Assembly: GCF_000686665.1 (NCBI RefSeq)
Contig: NZ_JMLH01000001.1
Location: forward strand, 1-64,000
Length of the DNA: 64,000 nt
DNA from: Thomasclavelia saccharogumia DSM 17460
GTDB lineage: Bacteria; Bacillota_I; Bacilli_A; Erysipelotrichales; Coprobacillaceae
Direction of reading: 5' to 3'
Positions 33,211 to 42,370 of this stretch are shown here, in pieces; the stretch's first letter is position 1, and the number at the start of each line of letters is the position of its first letter. The notes under the pieces are model-generated. The model searched no databases and was not told the origin of the DNA. It worked only from the letters and a program-made list of their open reading frames with translations. Position numbers and translations under genes: made by a program.

Positions 33211-33624
33211 TTATATATTTTCATACAAATAATTTTTCATAAATCTAGTTAATTCTCTATTACTGATTCCTATTTCTTTTAACCAATCGTTAAAATCCTC
33301 TAATAATACATCATCATCTTCATTTTTTGATATTACATTATTATTACTTATTTGCACGATCAATTCATTATCTATACACAACGATAAATTGCGATAATAA
33401 TACAAAACAGCTTCATCGTCTTCAAAAATATATTTAACCATTTTACTGGCACCACCGAGCCACATCGTCACACTAATCTTTTCAGAATCTTCTTGATTGA
33501 TTTCATACGAATATGGTTTTTGATTCAATAATAAATCTTTAACATAATAATTACGATAATATCTTAAACCACCTATTATTACTAAAACTATTATTACAAT
33601 TAATAGTACTTTATATTTTTTCAT
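33211..33624 (-). CDS. Membrane-anchored protein of the bacteriocin-like operon
   Basis: A 137-residue protein with an N-terminal hydrophobic anchor (about 5-22, VLLIVIIVLVIIGGL) preceded by lysines and an extracellular, acidic, strand-rich domain (ISVTMWLGGASKMVKYIFEDDEAVLYYY). The ATG at 33624 is used because AGGATG lies 6 bases upstream; another ATG 9 bases earlier sits in that site. It begins 11 bases after the ABC ATPase gene stops, last in the operon. Position suggests immunity or export accessory. No family was recognised. Confidence 0.65.
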   Translation of the reverse strand: MKKYKVLLIVIIVLVIIGGLRYYRNYYVKDLLLNQKPYSYEINQEDSEKISVTMWLGGASKMVKYIFEDDEAVLYYYRNLSLCIDNELIVQISNNNVISKNEDDDVLLEDFNDWLKEIGISNRELTRFMKNYLYENI

Positions 33625-33634
33625 ACCTATCATC

Positions 33635-34264
33635 CTAATCTAAATATATAATCTGATCAGCAATCCCTTTAAAAATTGGATCATGACTAACAACGACAAT
33701 GGTTTTTCCACTACTTTGCATTCTTTTTAATAATTTGATTACTATTTCTCTATTTCTTTCGTCAAGTGAACCCGTTGGTTCATCCGCTAAAATCAAATCA
33801 CATTGTTTTAATAATAATCTTGCAATCGCTACTCTTTGCTGCTCACCACCTGAACATTTAAATATTTTTTTATTTTCATAACCTTCTAATTCAACCTCTT
33901 TTAAGACTTCTTTTATCTTTTCTTTTTTATCACCTTTAATATTATCCAGCGCTAATTTAAGATTATATTCTACTGTTTCGTTTTCAACTAATGCAAAATT
34001 TTGAAAAAGATATCCGATTTTTTCTCTTAACATTTTTTCTGCTTTTCTCGAAAATGGTTTAATATTTTTTTCACCGAATAAAATAACATCTCCACTATCA
34101 GCTTTATCAAGTAAACCAATAATATTTAATAATGTCGATTTCCCTGAACCTGATACTCCCATTACAACATTAAATGTATTTTCTTCAACTTCAAAATTAA
34201 ATTTATCAAATATTATATTATCTTGATATGATTTACTCATATCAATTATTTCAATAACTTTCAT
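33635..34264 (-). CDS. ABC transporter ATP-binding protein, bacteriocin export/immunity type
   Basis: A 209-residue ATPase with Walker A GVSGSGKST (about 36-44), Q-loop YLFQNFALVENETVEYNL, signature CSGGEQQR and Walker B LILADEPTGSLDE, then switch His in VVSHD. The short form and the context (a large bacteriocin-associated type membrane protein just upstream and small secreted or anchored proteins around it) fit the ATPases of lactococcin-972-type and similar systems. It starts 1 base after the membrane protein gene ends. The ATPase itself is intact, although its partner gene is broken. Confidence 0.88.
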   Translation of the reverse strand: MKVIEIIDMSKSYQDNIIFDKFNFEVEENTFNVVMGVSGSGKSTLLNIIGLLDKADSGDVILFGEKNIKPFSRKAEKMLREKIGYLFQNFALVENETVEYNLKLALDNIKGDKKEKIKEVLKEVELEGYENKKIFKCSGGEQQRVAIARLLLKQCDLILADEPTGSLDERNREIVIKLLKRMQSSGKTIVVVSHDPIFKGIADQIIYLD

Positions 34265-34265
34265 T

Positions 34266-36314
34266 TTACAGCTTCTCTCCTTTCAACCAATTAACCATTT
34301 TTTTATTCTCAAAATAAATTATACAGATTATTTCAATAATTATTTCCATCAGCATAAAATAACCTACAAACAAAATTCGTTCATCAAAAGAAAGATCCAG
34401 CTTAAAACTTCCAAATAATATTATTACATAACTTGATAAATTAAATATAAATAACTTAATATGTCTTTTGATCCTAGAAATCCCCAAAATATAATTAATC
34501 GCCAGCTCTTTACCTTTTTCTTCTAAATAAGTAAAGATGCTTTGAAATACTAAAGTCAAATAAACAATTAAATAAATTCCTAAATTAACTCCAAATTCAA
34601 CTAACGCAGATTTACTTTGATCCATAAAATAATCATAATAATATTTTGCATTTTGAATATTAACCTTTATCCCATTTAATTCTTCTAATTCCTTTTTTAA
34701 TTCCCTAACATTATCAGTTTTAATTCCCAAATTTGTAATTCTTGTTTCAAATACCGAATATTCTGTTTCTAATAAAATAATTGGATTTTCTACATAATAA
34801 ATATCTTGAATATGATAATTTAAAAATTCTCCAGGATTTTCAATATATACTATTTCTACATTGGATGGATAATTTTATAAATCATGATCTTTATACATTT
34901 CAGGTACCAATAACGCGCCTTGAGGATAATTATTATAATCAAATTTCTTTCCATCTAACGTTATGATATCATGATTTTTTAAGTAATATTCATTTGCATG
35001 AATATATGGATATGGATAGATATCATCATCGTCATTAGTTAATTCAGCTACTTTAATATTTGCATAATAATCTGTAAAATCAGCATAATAACAATCATCC
35101 TTATAATATGCAAATATCTCTTTACTCTTTTCTGGTACTTCGTTTAAAAAATATAAGTCTGTTATATCTTCCTTTAAGTCTTTAACTTTCAAATAATTCG
35201 TTAGATAAGGCAATGATTCTTTTAATGAAGTAATAAACGGTGTCATCAAAAAGATAACCATAACTATTTTAATAACCATTTGCATATTAAATAATCTTTG
35301 AAAATAATTTTTTGTATTTAAATATTTTAAATTACAGCTTAAATTAATAAAAAACCAGTTAAATAAAAAAATAATTACTAAAACTCCAGCGAAATACATA
35401 TTAAATGGTAAAATCATTTTCAATAATTCAACAGTAACCTTATTAATATCCCGACATAAAACAAAATAAGATAACAAATTAATGATCATAAAAACAATTT
35501 GAGAAATAAGCAATGTTCCTAAAAACTCATACCTGGCTATCTTTATAGAAGAAGTTCCCATCATTCTTCTAATCATATATTGTCGATTTTTCCTAATAAT
35601 GATCGTAGACATAACTGTAACAAAAATAATTATTAATATTACCAATGCATTTTTTAAATTACTAAAAATATAGTCATCTTCAATATCTTCATCATGTACA
35701 CTCGTTTCATTTAACACCGAAACACTACTATCTGTTTTTTGTAAATATTCTTGTAAATCATTTATAAAATGATCATCTTTACTATATATAGTTAAATATA
35801 AATAATTTAACTGCTCTAATCCTGTATCTTCTAAAGCATTATATTGGTAAATATTTATTTTTCTTTTGATTTTATCAAAAAAACCATTATTTAAAATCTT
35901 GATTTTCCCTGCACTTTCTTTGCTATCATAAGTAGAATAATATGCTTTTCCAGTTAAATCCGAAAAATCTATTGCTTTACCATCAATGCATAGATCATTA
36001 AACAAATTAGTATTATTTGAATATATATAATAATTTTGATTTGTATACATTCCGGCATCATCAAGACTATTATTTAATGCAATAACTACTAAGTCATTTT
36101 CTTTAGCATATAATCCTATTTGTTGGTAAATATCTGTAAATTGACTATTTTCAAATCTCACATATACATTAAAATTATTTAATTCTAAGCTATCTTTAAC
36201 GCTTAAATTTAATTCATTTAATTTAGAAGCTTCAACAAGATTTTTTTCATTGAACGTATAATACACTAATGAAAAAGAAATCAGTACAACTACTACTATT
36301 AATAATTTCTTCAT
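34266..36314 (-). pseudogene. Bacteriocin-associated large membrane protein, broken by one stop
   Basis: Two open stretches in one frame (36314-34875 and onward to 34266) are separated only by TAA at 34875-34877, in DHDL-stop-NYPSNVEIVY. Without it the gene would code 682 residues: an N-terminal anchor, a long extracellular part, three or four helices (about 220-380), a second extracellular part and a final cluster of helices (LIIYL, LFIFNLSSYVIILFG, GYFMLMEIIIEIICIIYF). This is the FtsX-like layout of DUF1430-type proteins that pair with an ABC ATPase. A TTG at 34730 could restart a short C-terminal piece, but most likely the protein is lost or made by readthrough. Confidence 0.8.
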
Positions 36315-36329
36315 TCATCTTTCACCACC

Positions 36330-36602
36330 TTAACAGCTAATCTTAAAAATGCTTTTCTTTCCCGCATCAATACCACCACTAGCCAAAACTGGACCGCTTA
36401 TCGAAGCTGTATCTCTTAATCTCATTATATAAGTATATTTATCAAAACTTCCTGTATATCTTCCTTTTATAAACATTGTATAACTTTCATCCGGTGTAGA
36501 AATCGTTGCTTCAGCAACATATCTTGTCGTCTTACATCCTATCCTTGCATCAGCAGCATAAATAGAATTTCCCGATACAATTATTCCTAAAATAGATATC
36601 AA
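36330..36602 (-). CDS. Small secreted two-cysteine peptide, start codon apparently lost
   Basis: The frame codes a signal peptide and a mature part starting near ADARIGCK and ending KSIFKISC, with exactly two cysteines, one near each end. Reading back, KFIKRVLLISILG would complete a standard signal peptide, and AGGAG (36632-36636) stands at the right distance, but the codon where ATG is expected (36624-36626) reads TAA. The only start now is TTG at 36602 with a weaker AAGAG upstream. It is the first gene of the operon with the DUF1430-type protein and ABC ATPase, so it is the likely bacteriocin or pheromone. It is not lactococcin 972 by sequence. Confidence 0.55.
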   Translation of the reverse strand: MISILGIIVSGNSIYAADARIGCKTTRYVAEATISTPDESYTMFIKGRYTGSFDKYTYIMRLRDTASISGPVLASGGIDAGKKSIFKISC

Positions 36603-36670
36603 TAAAACTCTTTTTATAAACTTTTAGTATGCTCCTTCAATAGTTTTTAGAAATATCACTTTCTAGTGTT

Positions 36671-36775
36671 TTTAAATATAGCTATATCTTAATTACATAT
36701 TAGTATATTTTAAGTATCAAATCTATATACCTGGCAAGATCAGCACAATTTTGGCAAGAATAACACATTTTTATG
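36671..36775. promoter_or_regulatory. Operator region with two TGGCAAGA repeats, copy 1
   Basis: TGGCAAGA at 36732-36739 and 36752-36759 are direct repeats 20 bases apart, two helical turns, as for LytTR regulator sites. They lie between the small secreted peptide operon (minus) and the LytTR gene (plus). The whole ~105 bp, including ATATAGCTATAT and the AT-rich piece between, recurs at 40542-40645 with about 85-90% identity. Confidence 0.7.
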
Positions 36776-36844
36776 TATAATATTAAAATAACATTAAATT
36801 TTTGCTTTCTAAAAACAAATAATATTATAATAAACATAATGTTA

Positions 36845-36873
36845 TTGACAGATAAAAAATATTTTTTTATAAT
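36845..36873 (+). promoter_or_regulatory. Consensus sigma-A promoter of the LytTR gene
   Basis: TTGACA (36845-36850), 17-base spacer, TATAAT (36868-36873). Both boxes match consensus. The start codon is 65 bases after the -10 box. Confidence 0.85.
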
Positions 36874-36938
36874 AAAAATATGAATTTTTTAAATAGAGTA
36901 TATTGATTAATATACTACTAGTGGGGATGGGGATAATT

Positions 36939-37673
36939 ATGATAATTGCATTAATTGATAATAATGAACAAGAATTAGAAATTTCTAGTTCTTTGATTGA
37001 AAATGAGATACAGAAATATACTAATAATTATGTCATTGATAAAATCAATGATCCTAATATATTAGATTTAAATAAATATTATGATGTTATGCTCTTAGAA
37101 GTCAATATGCCAAAAGATGGTATTGAACTAGCCAAAGAATATCTCATTTATCATAAAAAAACAAAAATTATATTTATTAGTAATCATATTGAAAGAGTTT
37201 TTGATACTTTTGATGTTCATCCTTTTTACTTTATTAAGAAAGATAATTTAAAAATATTTATTTCAAAAGTTATCAAATTATTAATTGATAAGATAAGAAT
37301 CGATAATACACATTTATCTATTAATACTATATATGGTTTAACTAATATAGAGTTAAACAAGATAAAATATATTAAAAGTGATAAACACTACTGTTTAATT
37401 TTTACAACAGATGAAATATATAAAGTTCGTGATACTATTGATAATATTCTTTTAAAAATAGTTAGTAAAAATTTCACTCGTATTCATCAATCAACAATTA
37501 TCAACTGGCGATATGTTGAAGAATTCAAGTATAATACAATTAAAATTAATCAAGAGTATTTATCAGTAAGTAGAACTTATTTATCTGAATGCAAGAAAAC
37601 ATATACAATTTTTATTAATAGTCCATTTAATATTAATTCAAAAAATTTAAGTAATAATGTTAATAATGAATAA
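36939..37673 (+). CDS. LytTR-family response regulator with Glu at the phospho-acceptor site
   Basis: A 244-residue protein. The receiver domain (about 1-110) keeps the early acidic site (ALIDNN), the Ser (FISNH) and the Lys (YFIKK), but the phospho-acceptor Asp of the usual L-D-I-x-M-P is Glu54 in MLLEVNMP. The LytTR DNA-binding domain (about 125-225) has IKYIKSDKHYCLIF, FTRIHQSTIINW and YLSVSRTYL. ATG 36939 is chosen (GGGGAT upstream) over an in-frame ATT/ATG earlier. No sensor kinase gene is near. It is divergent from the bacteriocin-like operon and probably controls it through the TGGCAAGA repeats. Confidence 0.88.
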   Translation: MIIALIDNNEQELEISSSLIENEIQKYTNNYVIDKINDPNILDLNKYYDVMLLEVNMPKDGIELAKEYLIYHKKTKIIFISNHIERVFDTFDVHPFYFIKKDNLKIFISKVIKLLIDKIRIDNTHLSINTIYGLTNIELNKIKYIKSDKHYCLIFTTDEIYKVRDTIDNILLKIVSKNFTRIHQSTIINWRYVEEFKYNTIKINQEYLSVSRTYLSECKKTYTIFINSPFNINSKNLSNNVNNE

Positions 37674-37708
37674 AAATAATTTTGAAAAACTCTTATGTTA
37701 TAAATACA

Positions 37709-37752
37709 AAACTGAAGCACTATAAATTATTTTACAGTACTTCAGTTTTTCT
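37709..37752 (+). terminator. Terminator of the LytTR gene
   Basis: AAAACTGAAGCACT pairs with AGTACTTCAGTTTT with one mismatch, followed by T. It is 35 bases beyond the stop codon. The spacer 37674-38014 has this hairpin, the one at 37924 and no gene. Confidence 0.8.
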
Positions 37753-37923
37753 ACTTAGTTAAAGTAATCATAACTTTAAAAGTTATTTCATTATATCCTT
37801 TTTTGTATTTTTCTTATAAAAAATTTTAACTTTTTAGTTTTTATTACATAAAAAGCACCTATAAATAAACTTTCTTAAAATACAAATATCAAATCGCAAT
37901 ATAGTCAATTGATATTCATGATT

Positions 37924-37959
37924 AAAAAGGAATCCAATTTTATAATTGAATTCCTTTTT
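37924..37959 (-). terminator. Terminator after the anchored 186-residue protein
   Basis: AAAAAGGAATCCAATT and AATTGAATTCCTTTTT pair around a 4-base loop with one mismatch. It ends the minus-strand transcript and T-runs occur on both sides. Confidence 0.8.
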
Positions 37960-38014
37960 GTCTTCAGATCATTCCAAAAACATTATTCAACCAATAAAAT
38001 ACTTTTTCATAAAA

Positions 38015-38575
38015 CTATTTTATAATCCATTGATCCTTATAATCTCTAAAACACAAATCAACATCCCTAACTGACCGCTTTCCATCTTTATTATACATTA
38101 CTGCAAAACCATCTAATTTTTCATCTGTATAACTTAAACAGACAAAATAATGATCTTTATAAACGAACCTAACCAAATCATTAAATTCCACTAAATCATA
38201 ATCTTTCGCCAATTCTTCTTTACTTATACTCAAAAAATCAATATCATCAATTTCAAGAGTTGATACATTTTCATCGACATCCAAACCAATATAACTAATT
38301 AACGCATTTTCTTTATCTAAAAAATCAACAGTTCCTTCCGTATCAGTTATAGCATAAATTTTAGGTGCCATAATTCGAGTGAATAAATATATTATATCTC
38401 TACAATCAGTTTCTATATAACCAAGATCTGTAATATCATGATATGTTGATGTTTCTAATTGTATTTCAAGAGCATTAATTTTAATTAACGGCTTATTACT
38501 TCCAGTTTGACAAAATTTTAATATTACAATGATACCAATAACTATAATAATCAAACTGGTTATTATTTTTTTCAT
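38015..38575 (-). CDS. Membrane-anchored extracellular protein
   Basis: A 186-residue protein with an N-terminal anchor (about 4-22, ITSLIIIVIGIIVILKFC). The C next to the anchor (LKFC-QTGSN) is not a canonical lipobox, so this may be a membrane anchor rather than a lipoprotein. The rest is mixed strand and helix (YHDITDLGYIETDCRDIIYL, DHYFVCLSYTDE). AGGATGAT precedes the ATG. It follows two secreted Cys-motif paralogues on the same strand. No family was recognised. Confidence 0.65.
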   Translation of the reverse strand: MKKIITSLIIIVIGIIVILKFCQTGSNKPLIKINALEIQLETSTYHDITDLGYIETDCRDIIYLFTRIMAPKIYAITDTEGTVDFLDKENALISYIGLDVDENVSTLEIDDIDFLSISKEELAKDYDLVEFNDLVRFVYKDHYFVCLSYTDEKLDGFAVMYNKDGKRSVRDVDLCFRDYKDQWIIK

Positions 38576-38615
38576 AATATATCATCCTTTTTCTTTTCAT
38601 AATATAGTTTATATA

Positions 38616-39044
38616 TTATGAGAAATTATAAGAAATCATAGGTGTATTTTTATAAGTAATAGGTAAATCTGTTTTAAGTATATATCCAAAACTTTGTTCG
38701 TATACTTCCCAATCTTTTCCTCTTCTATCATCACTACTTTCTATATAATATTCTGGTATCCCAGCTTTATATCCATCAGCATCAGGACGTCCGGAGCAGA
38801 ACAAAACCGTTCCACATGCACATCTATAATAACCCCAATTATACATTGATCTAGACTCATTTTTTGTTGAAAATATATTACATTGTCCTTGATTAACAGC
38901 ACGATGTTTTCCCTTGTATCTTTCGCAATATATAACTGCTGTTGGTTGGGTTGTATTTTTTTCATTAGCAAATACTGTGTCAGTATTTATAAACACTAAG
39001 GAAAATAATATATTTATTACTAAAATAATTTTTATCTGTTTCAT
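38616..39044 (-). CDS. Secreted Cys-motif protein, paralogue 2
   Basis: A 142-residue protein with signal peptide (1-26, cut after VFA). The mature part has AVIYCERYKGKHRAVNQGQ, then YYRCACGTVLFCSGRPDAD. The cysteines and their spacing (C-x-x-x-x-K-x-K-H, then C-x-C-G) are shared with the gene upstream, as are a final hydrophobic ISYNF-type end. The pattern could bind metal, or could be two disulphides. GAGGAAAT precedes the ATG. No known family was recognised. Confidence 0.7.
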   Translation of the reverse strand: MKQIKIILVINILFSLVFINTDTVFANEKNTTQPTAVIYCERYKGKHRAVNQGQCNIFSTKNESRSMYNWGYYRCACGTVLFCSGRPDADGYKAGIPEYYIESSDDRRGKDWEVYEQSFGYILKTDLPITYKNTPMISYNFS

Positions 39045-39202
39045 TTAAAATTTCCTCTTTTCTTTTAATATTTGTCATAATGTTGTTGTTTTACAACAAT
39101 TATAAATAAACAATTTAAGACTATATTTTTATATAGATTCTCTAAAAAAATAAACTTATACATTTGTATAACTATTATTTATCAAAACTAATACTGTAAA
39201 TT

Positions 39203-39610
39203 TTAATAACCACTATAAAAATTACATGATACCATACTAGCATCTTTGATTTGCATTGGTAAATTTGTACCAATTTTGCTTTTACTATATACAATATATC
39301 CATCATAAAGATTTTCCATGTCTATGTGCGTTTCAATATATTTTCCTGGTATATTATTATTACTCTCTGGTCTATTATTTGAAAATATAACTTCTCCACA
39401 AGCGCACCTATAAAATCTAAAATTTTCTTCACGTAAATTATCTCCTCCCTCATCATATATATCCCCATGTCCAAAATAATACATTCTATGCTTTGACTTA
39501 TATCTTTCACAATATATAACACCATTTGGTTTTTCTTCCTCAGCACAAATTTTTACAATTCCCATAGGAATAATCATTAATACAGCTAATAAAATTTTAG
39601 TTATTTTCAT
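39203..39610 (-). CDS. Secreted Cys-motif protein, paralogue 1
   Basis: A 135-residue protein with signal peptide (1-23, cut near KICAE). The mature part has VIYCERYKSKHRMYYFG and FYRCACGEVIFSNNRPES, matching paralogue 2 in the same order, and ends with a cysteine (VSCNFYSGY). The start at 39610 has GGAGG 5 bases upstream. An in-frame ATG 30 bases earlier holds that site. Tandem duplication of a secreted gene beside a bacteriocin-type operon suggests that both are effectors or surface factors, but function is unknown. Confidence 0.7.
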   Translation of the reverse strand: MKITKILLAVLMIIPMGIVKICAEEEKPNGVIYCERYKSKHRMYYFGHGDIYDEGGDNLREENFRFYRCACGEVIFSNNRPESNNNIPGKYIETHIDMENLYDGYIVYSKSKIGTNLPMQIKDASMVSCNFYSGY

Positions 39611-40541
39611 ATTTTCCTCCATTTCCGTCCCTTTCACCAAGCAGACAATACCTTATTAAAAATATTTCTCTCCAATCGTTTTTTATATCTTTTCTTATTA
39701 AGAAAAACGACATAACTACAAATTACACGAAAATAAATGAATAGTCTTACTCTATAAAAATGTTCTGAATTTTTATAAATAATTAATCATTCAAGTATAA
39801 TCAAGTAGACCCTAGAGCTCAGATACTTAAAATCATTTTATTAACTTTAGTGATATTTTACAAACTATTAGTAAATGTCTTTTTTTTAAAGCGTTTTTTA
39901 TACTAAAAATATATCGATTTCAATTCTACTTATTTTAATGTTCACAAGAATTTTATTATTGTTGCCATCATTGGTATTTACTTCTTAAAAACAGTACATT
40001 CACTACTATTTCTCTTAGTTTTAATCTTTATAATCTTACTTACCAAATATAATTGTTGTGATATCTGTATGGAATCTACTGATAAGTATCAAATATTTTT
40101 ATTTAATAACCTTAAATCTAAAAATTGCACAAACACATTCTCGTCTATCCTAAATATGTTAGAGCTAATCAGCATCTATCACATGATTATTAATGAAGAA
40201 AAATTCACCTCCTCATGTTACAAATCTTTAAAAATCCATAATTATAAGAATCTAATATATAGTCAATTTTGATACCCCAGATAATTCTGAATAAACCCAA
40301 ACATATTCTTATACCTTTTTACGTTTTTTTATTACGATTGGATTAAATTATTTTTCATACTCCTTTTTATAATCAAAAGATATACATCAACCTATTAACT
40401 ATTTTTTTTATTTTAGTTAAATAAAATATACTACTATTAGAATAATTAAACTCACATTTTTTAATCACTTGATTTAAACATATTTGATGCTTCATTTAAC
40501 ATAATTTTAACAATACAATACAATCATTCTCTATTATATTT
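39611..40541. other. AT-rich spacer with gene remnants
   Basis: No convincing gene in 930 bases. A plus-strand frame open from 39907 to 40272 (without an ATG until 40069) has one hydrophobic stretch (FIIVAIIGIYFLK, LLFLLVLIFIILL) followed by NCCDICMESTDKY. It lacks a ribosome binding site and looks like the leftover of a membrane protein. On the minus strand short frames such as MLNEASNMFKSSD follow the duplicated operator but have no ribosome site. This stretch probably once held an operon like 33-37 kb. Confidence 0.4.
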
Positions 40542-40645
40542 TTTTAATATAGCTATATCCTAATTACATATTAATATATTCTAAATAACAAATCTATTTA
40601 CCTGGCAAGATTAGCACAATCTTGGCAAGAATAACATAATTTTTT
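40542..40645. repeat. Operator region with two TGGCAAGA repeats, copy 2
   Basis: Duplicate of 36671-36775, same orientation. TGGCAAGA at 40603-40610 and 40623-40630, again 20 bases apart, with ATATAGCTATAT and most of the AT-rich part kept. There is no intact gene directly downstream on the minus strand, so the second copy is an orphan promoter or drives a very short transcript or the paralogues ~900 bases away. Confidence 0.75.
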
Positions 40646-42204: not shown

Positions 42205-42370
42205 ACTATTCATCCTGCTGTCCTTTTACCTGAGAGTTTCACCATCACTGGTTTGCTCCTTCGGTGTTCATTTAGAATCTCTCCAGCAGTTCGTCCAATA
42301 GCGATCCTTTTACCTGAAATCTTTAATCCTTCGGTGTTCATTTAGAATCTCTTTCGCCATTATCATCCGA
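42205..42370 (-). ncRNA. Tandem glycine riboswitch
   Basis: On the minus strand two aptamers follow one another. The first spans about 42370-42300 and the second about 42290-42212. Each has GAGATTCTAAATGAACACCG then AAGGA, and each ends with CAGGTAAAAGGA. The second has the best form (GCTGGAGAGA ... AACTCTCAGGTAAAAGGACAGC), closed by CTGCTG/CAGCAG. This is the classical two-aptamer layout with a short linker; it ends about 50 bases before the symporter start codon. There is no clear terminator hairpin behind it, so control may be translational or by a weak terminator. Confidence 0.92.

Follow-up and report, generated by a model that had tools for sequence, protein, structure and literature searches.

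The locus considered here, in Thomasclavelia saccharogumia DSM 17460, raises the question of what two near-identical DNA segments on either side of a LytTR regulator gene are for. It lies within positions 1 to 64,000 of contig NZ_JMLH01000001.1 (the window, i.e. the whole stretch of 64,000 nucleotides that was analysed). An earlier note on this DNA described two ~105-bp segments 3.9 kb apart, each with a repeat pair at 20 bases, and took them for an operator linked to the LytTR protein. The explanation reached here, which is considered probable, is that the repeats are the predicted binding site of the adjacent AgrA-type LytTR regulator, which would drive exported-peptide units via a duplicated portable cassette and would act independently of phosphorylation.

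A repeat search recovered the segments as one 104-nt direct repeat at 36669-36772 (copy 1) and 40540-40643 (copy 2), both read on the minus strand, with 89% identity and a start-to-start distance of 3,871, in agreement with the dimensions reported before. The pair TGGCAAGA-N12-TGGCAAGA lies at 36732-36759 and 40603-40630; no third place in the window carries it, and 100 dinucleotide shuffles of the window gave zero such pairs. Genome-wide (3.14 Mb), the exact pair has two copies, every other place having at least two mismatches, and strong matches to the 126-bp stretch were likewise confined to the two window copies (next best E 0.34). The pair geometry of 8 + 12 bp gives 20 bp from start to start. 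The octamer pair stands as the feature shared by the segments, with the refinement that the likeness extends beyond the octamer over units of ~20 bp.

On the minus strand, each copy reads as two tandem ~20-bp units, equal to each other at 16-18 of 20 positions, with a -10-like box 24 nt after them and no -35 element. The operator of copy 1 occupies 36732-36771 (-) with units AAAATGTGTTATTCTTGCCA and AAATTGTGCTGATCTTGCCA, the TCTTGCCA cores being at 36759-36752 and 36739-36732, and the predicted -10 box TATACT is located at 36702-36707 (-). In copy 2, which adjoins an alanine symporter gene, units AAATTATGTTATTCTTGCCA and AGATTGTGCTAATCTTGCCA span 40603-40642 (-), and the predicted -10 box TATATT lies at 40573-40578 (-). 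By alignment, the box reads TATACT, TATATT or TATTAT depending on the copy; its distance from the repeats varies little or not at all and is 24 nt in most copies. In minus-strand orientation, the bulk of the conserved 104 bp lies on the downstream side. Across ten aligned copies conservation is 0.88 in the repeats versus 0.75 in the following piece, and the TGCCA closing both units is invariant (10/10). This is the arrangement by which LytTR operators are recognised, namely two direct repeats ~20-21 bp apart from start to start just upstream of a promoter. Both window copies face minus-strand genes for exported proteins, and the LytTR gene runs the opposite way. Several copies include a palindrome, ATATAGCTATAT, in the predicted 5' leader; it is found at 36676-36692 (-) within copy 1 and at equivalent places in loci L046 and L047. 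In copies G035b and G038_56, this place is taken by a different near-palindrome.

The link to the regulator was examined in 43 genomes of the family, using a site model built from the sites of four of them, so that the survey shows absence elsewhere and is not an independent discovery. Matches with E <= 1.1e-14 were obtained only in the window genome (G000), T. cocleata DSM 1551 (G035), VE202-01 (G038) and a metagenome-assembled genome (G040). The next best E was 2e-4, and a copy in VE202-01 with a deleted unit scored 4e-6. The same four genomes, all of Thomasclavelia, are exactly those with a 73-100% identical LytTR protein, the next LytTR in the survey being 42% identical. In total, 11 sites are present in the four genomes, nearly all of them before exported-protein genes: two in the window genome, two in G040, three in T. 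cocleata, and three intact in VE202-01, plus a fourth there with one 20-bp unit lost and its operon reduced to a remnant. The search of related genomes proposed in the earlier note finds strong copies only together with the LytTR orthologue, nearly all followed by exported-protein genes, which agrees with its idea of a regulon of several secreted-peptide units.

Analogous sites adjoin other LytTR genes. In G039 and G028, independent LytTR genes have TTGCCA-N14-TTGCCA within ~70-90 bp on their upstream side; in G033, TGCCA-N15-TGCCA lies between LytTR and agrB (this agrB was identified by eye from its N-terminus). For two LytTR-adjacent matches among 19 other sites, a rough P of 4e-5 to 2e-3 was obtained, depending on the LytTR gene count used. 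Genome-wide, the TTGCCA-N14-TTGCCA pattern is not clearly enriched (26 versus ~20 in the reversed control), and only its position next to LytTR genes is informative. Tandem 21-bp sites of other sequence (CCGAATTTG or CCAAATATG) occupy the equivalent place in three agr loci. G033, of genus g20, carries four copies of a 76-90-bp operator-promoter with the repeat GGATTCC...GATTTC around lactococcin-972-type operons and LytTR, AgrC and AgrB, the last confirmed by PF04647. Three of these segments, 83-92% identical to the fourth, precede a DUF1430 unit, a lactococcin-like peptide gene and agrB, and the fourth lies between LytTR and a 134-aa peptide gene; judged from its sequence, this locus is the window's design within a complete quorum-sensing locus. 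In the same genus, loci L189 and L190 combine LytTR, an AgrC-like kinase, AgrB and several DUF1430/ABC/peptide units with shared operator-promoters, and are candidate agr-controlled multi-bacteriocin islands. In G034, some of the peptide or DUF1430 units showed no significant tandem site upstream. Because the strong sites co-occur with the close LytTR orthologue and analogous 20/21-bp sites are present at other LytTR genes, the LytTR link made in the earlier note is well supported, binding itself being a prediction from sequence.

The LytTR gene (36939-37673, +) encodes a response regulator of 244 aa. Its C-terminal domain matches PF04397 with 53.9 bits (cut-off 22.6), and the receiver fold is detectable at 23 bits, below the cut-off of 30.2. 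Alignment with paralogues showed Glu at the phospho-acceptor position and Asn or Ser at the second acidic position in 4/4 orthologues; a receiver with the phospho-acceptor Asp and an unaltered acidic pocket is lacking. All eight aligned paralogues keep the Asp, including the nearest one (G039), which is adjoined by a kinase gene, and the Asp-to-Glu change is limited to the four-species clade. No kinase or AgrB gene or remnant was found in the window, orphan kinases elsewhere in the genome being possible. Since Asp is replaced by Glu and no kinase gene lies beside the regulator gene, activation without phosphorylation is suggested. The promoter of the LytTR gene, TTGACA-N17-TATAAT at 36845-36873 (+), matches the consensus at 12/12 positions and is kept in all four species (12/12 in three, 11/12 in T. 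cocleata). An Asp-to-Glu regulator with a near-consensus housekeeping promoter in all four species appears, from these sequences, to be the new element here. Autoregulation by the operator was set aside on two grounds, its direction, opposite to that of the LytTR gene, and the consensus promoter of that gene. In LytTR regulatory systems (LRS), the regulator is co-transcribed with an inhibitory membrane protein and autoregulated by direct repeats; the window gene stands alone on its strand, and the operator faces the other way. A search for the LytTR protein in viral contigs gave no match.

On the proposed explanation, a regulator dimer would bind the two 20-bp units on one helix face, immediately upstream of where the absent -35 element would lie, and would recruit RNA polymerase to the minus-strand promoters of the exported-peptide units. 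Activation through a -35-less promoter is inferred from the site geometry and LytTR precedents. Any effect of the sites would be on the minus strand, in the direction leading from the LytTR gene; the regulator itself would be made from its consensus housekeeping promoter and work without phosphorylation. The duplicated cassette would front exchangeable cargo, comprising lactococcin-972-type operons (peptide, DUF1430 protein and ABC ATPase) with presumed bacteriocin activity and other exported proteins, and the window locus may derive from an agr-type bacteriocin locus like those of relatives. A wider scenario can be put forward only tentatively: a lineage of agr-type regulators may have been cut loose from quorum sensing, with a phospho-mimicking Glu, the kinase and signal genes gone and the regulator continuously on, and its portable cassette, copied around the locus and beyond, may recruit successive bacteriocin and exported-protein cargos.

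Several points weigh against the proposed explanation. The TGGCAAGA octamer is a poor fit to the classical LytTR consensus, only GTTATTC of the left unit recalling the VirR box, and the right-hand unit is 24 nt from the -10 box, closer than the ~29-31 nt in the published layout of S. mutans LRS promoters. The copies are homologous, so their likeness may be largely due to descent rather than selection, and a regulator with Glu at the phospho-site is not necessarily constitutively active. Decay of the operon behind copy 1 is a further point, as is the stretch of ~900 bp, devoid of long minus-strand frames, between copy 2 and its first gene in this genome. The genome also encodes 13 LytTR domains, so that another LytTR protein could bind.

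The ~900-bp gap fits the alternative that copy 2 is the dead remnant of a duplicated bacteriocin unit and that only copy 1 matters; the earlier note likewise took copy 2 to have lost its operon. This alternative survives best and is nevertheless improbable. The copy adjoining the alanine symporter is syntenic in 4/4 species; it keeps its two units, apart from one core mismatch in VE202-01, and the genes behind it differ. Copy 2 is 97% identical to the second copy of G040, above the 90% between copy 1 and the first copy of G040, and the two window copies share 88% in this comparison; therefore, as far as sequence identity dates it, the operator duplication predates the split of this species from G040. 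Behind the symporter-side copy there is a 186-aa gene in G040 and VE202-01, which in G040 has one stop codon and directly follows the operator, three genes for exported proteins (229, 194 and 138 aa) in T. cocleata, and a 1.8-kb segment with a pair of genes for Cys-containing proteins in the window. Among these sequences, the cargo has been exchanged and the operator kept, and the reading that a peptide unit is gone is not supported, other exported-protein genes lying downstream.

Damage is seen instead in the operon behind copy 1, which the earlier note had as still present. Its first gene (36330-36602, -), for a secreted precursor of 90 aa of the lactococcin-972 type, has decayed: compared with T. 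cocleata and G040, the ATG is missing at the expected place and ~100 bp are deleted at the 3' end. The gene for a DUF1430 bacteriocin-associated membrane protein (34266-36314, -; PF07242, 29.6 bits, cut-off 28.2; TIGR01654 below cut-off only) contains one in-frame TAA at 34877-34875; in T. cocleata, both this gene and the ABC gene are uninterrupted. The bacteriocin-export ABC (ATP-binding cassette) ATPase gene (33635-34264, -) is intact and matches TIGR03608, the lactococcin 972 group, with 255.3 bits (cut-off 254.85). The last gene (33211-33633, -) encodes a 140-aa exported or membrane-anchored protein with a 144-aa orthologue in T. cocleata. DUF1430 proteins are likely immunity proteins (PMC12345188). 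The size, signal-peptide-like N-terminus and position of the window peptide fit a lactococcin-972-type precursor, and the lactococcin 972 family model gave no family match for it or its relatives. A lactococcin 972 fold is not claimed because AlphaFold models of three peptide sequences had a mean pLDDT of 44 and Foldseek returned no usable match.

Two further observations concern copies in relatives. An extra copy in VE202-01, on another contig, precedes genes for a 256-aa exported protein and a lipoprotein-like product, and mainly the repeats are conserved there. At locus L045 of T. cocleata, the two copies (near 2084 and 3597) have units of the GTGCCA type and share 92% identity, and the copy on contig C84 retains TCTTGCCA; the likeness of the L045 copies suggests gene conversion or co-evolution with the diverged T. 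cocleata LytTR.

A little less probable again is a real operator bound by a different LytTR or AgrA protein, with the neighbouring gene as bystander or competitor. The 13 LytTR-domain genes and several AgrC-type kinases of the genome would allow it, as would the degenerate receiver of the neighbour. However, the operators co-occur only with the orthologue of the neighbour, other LytTR genes of the family have repeats of their own adjoining, and the neighbouring gene is intact and 73-93% conserved across the four species.

Lower still stands the possibility that the adjacent regulator represses through the sites. AgrA has been reported to repress at least one promoter, bsaA, when bound downstream of it (PMC4227749). 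Sites located upstream of a -10 box without a -35 element are instead the usual layout for LytTR activators (PMC6193735, PMC4227749), and for a repressor one would expect a promoter that is active unaided. Finally, a generic repeat, dispersed or mobile and unconnected with the regulator, which the two near-identical ~100-bp copies might recall and which would have overturned the earlier note, was rejected on copy number and is largely refuted, there being two copies in the genome, no strong match in 39 family genomes lacking the orthologue, a fixed position before exported-protein genes and no mobile-element features seen.

The pairing of a LytTR regulator with lactococcin-972-like cargo is already known. 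In pneumococcus, ComE activates the lactococcin-972-like operon scbABC via a site in its promoter (PMC11796350), and the window resembles this system in having a LytTR regulator, a peptide/membrane protein/transporter operon and a site in the operon promoter, control being a proposal here. ComE is part of the competence system, whose pheromone is CSP (competence-stimulating peptide), and is not encoded beside scbABC (PMC11796350), whereas the window regulator is encoded beside the locus and has no phospho-Asp, and the site sequence is another. In S. mutans, the LytTR regulators of the HdrRM and BrsRM systems are likewise outside classical kinase control and drive bacteriocin genes via direct repeats mostly 12 bp apart upstream of the promoter, those of HdrR and BrsR being just upstream of -35 (PMC6193735). 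These regulators are held by a membrane inhibitor of the same operon and are autoregulated (PMC6193735); the window regulator has a degenerate receiver and no adjacent membrane partner, and the operator is directed away from its gene.

AgrA and ComE provide further LytTR-site precedents of the same geometry (PMC4227749, PMC11796350). The clostridial AgrA-like regulators RgaR of C. difficile and VirR of C. perfringens also use two direct repeats (PMC10602386, PMC2706048), at -51/-72 and 21 bp apart in an RgaR target (PMC10602386), and GTTATTC of the left unit is found within the pfoA-promoter primer CCCAGTTATTCAC (PMC2706048). The RgaR/VirR spacing is 21 bp and that in the window 20 bp; both regulators depend on a kinase and phosphorylation, and their targets are agrB1D1, a small RNA and perfringolysin, not bacteriocin operons (PMC10602386, PMC2706048). 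The agr and g20 loci share with the window an AgrA-type LytTR and 20/21-bp tandem sites between the regulator and a divergent operon, and the g20 loci also several bacteriocin-type units with a common duplicated operator-promoter. The window differs from them in the absence of AgrB and AgrC alongside, the Glu at the phospho-site and the TTGCCA-type operator.

A literature search found no paper dedicated to bacteriocin regulation in gut Thomasclavelia, for which the locus offers a small testable regulon of bacteriocin-like genes. The operator can serve as a search motif for cargo with unknown protein families. Complete agr-bacteriocin loci in one genus and the kinase-less Asp-to-Glu version in another form a natural series for studying how a two-component regulator becomes phosphorylation-independent.

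The first gene downstream of copy 2, ~900 bp away, encodes an exported Cys-containing protein of 135 aa (39203-39610, -). It is followed by the gene for a 142-aa paralogue, 38% identical (38616-39044, -), and by that for a 186-aa membrane-anchored or exported protein (38015-38575, -), whose gene comes first behind the orthologous operator in G040 and VE202-01. The Cys-containing pair (38616-39610) has a common YCERYK...H...YRCACG motif, gave nothing above cut-off in Pfam or NCBIfam, and is missing at the syntenic place in G040 and VE202-01. Between copy 2 and these genes lies a stop-to-stop frame of 121 codons (39907-40272, +) with a hydrophobic N-terminal half and no Pfam match; being long for such AT-rich DNA, it is perhaps a gene remnant. 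The leader of the alanine/glycine symporter gene contains a tandem glycine riboswitch (42215-42366, -) with two RF00504 aptamers of 59.3 and 45.4 bits (gathering threshold 32).

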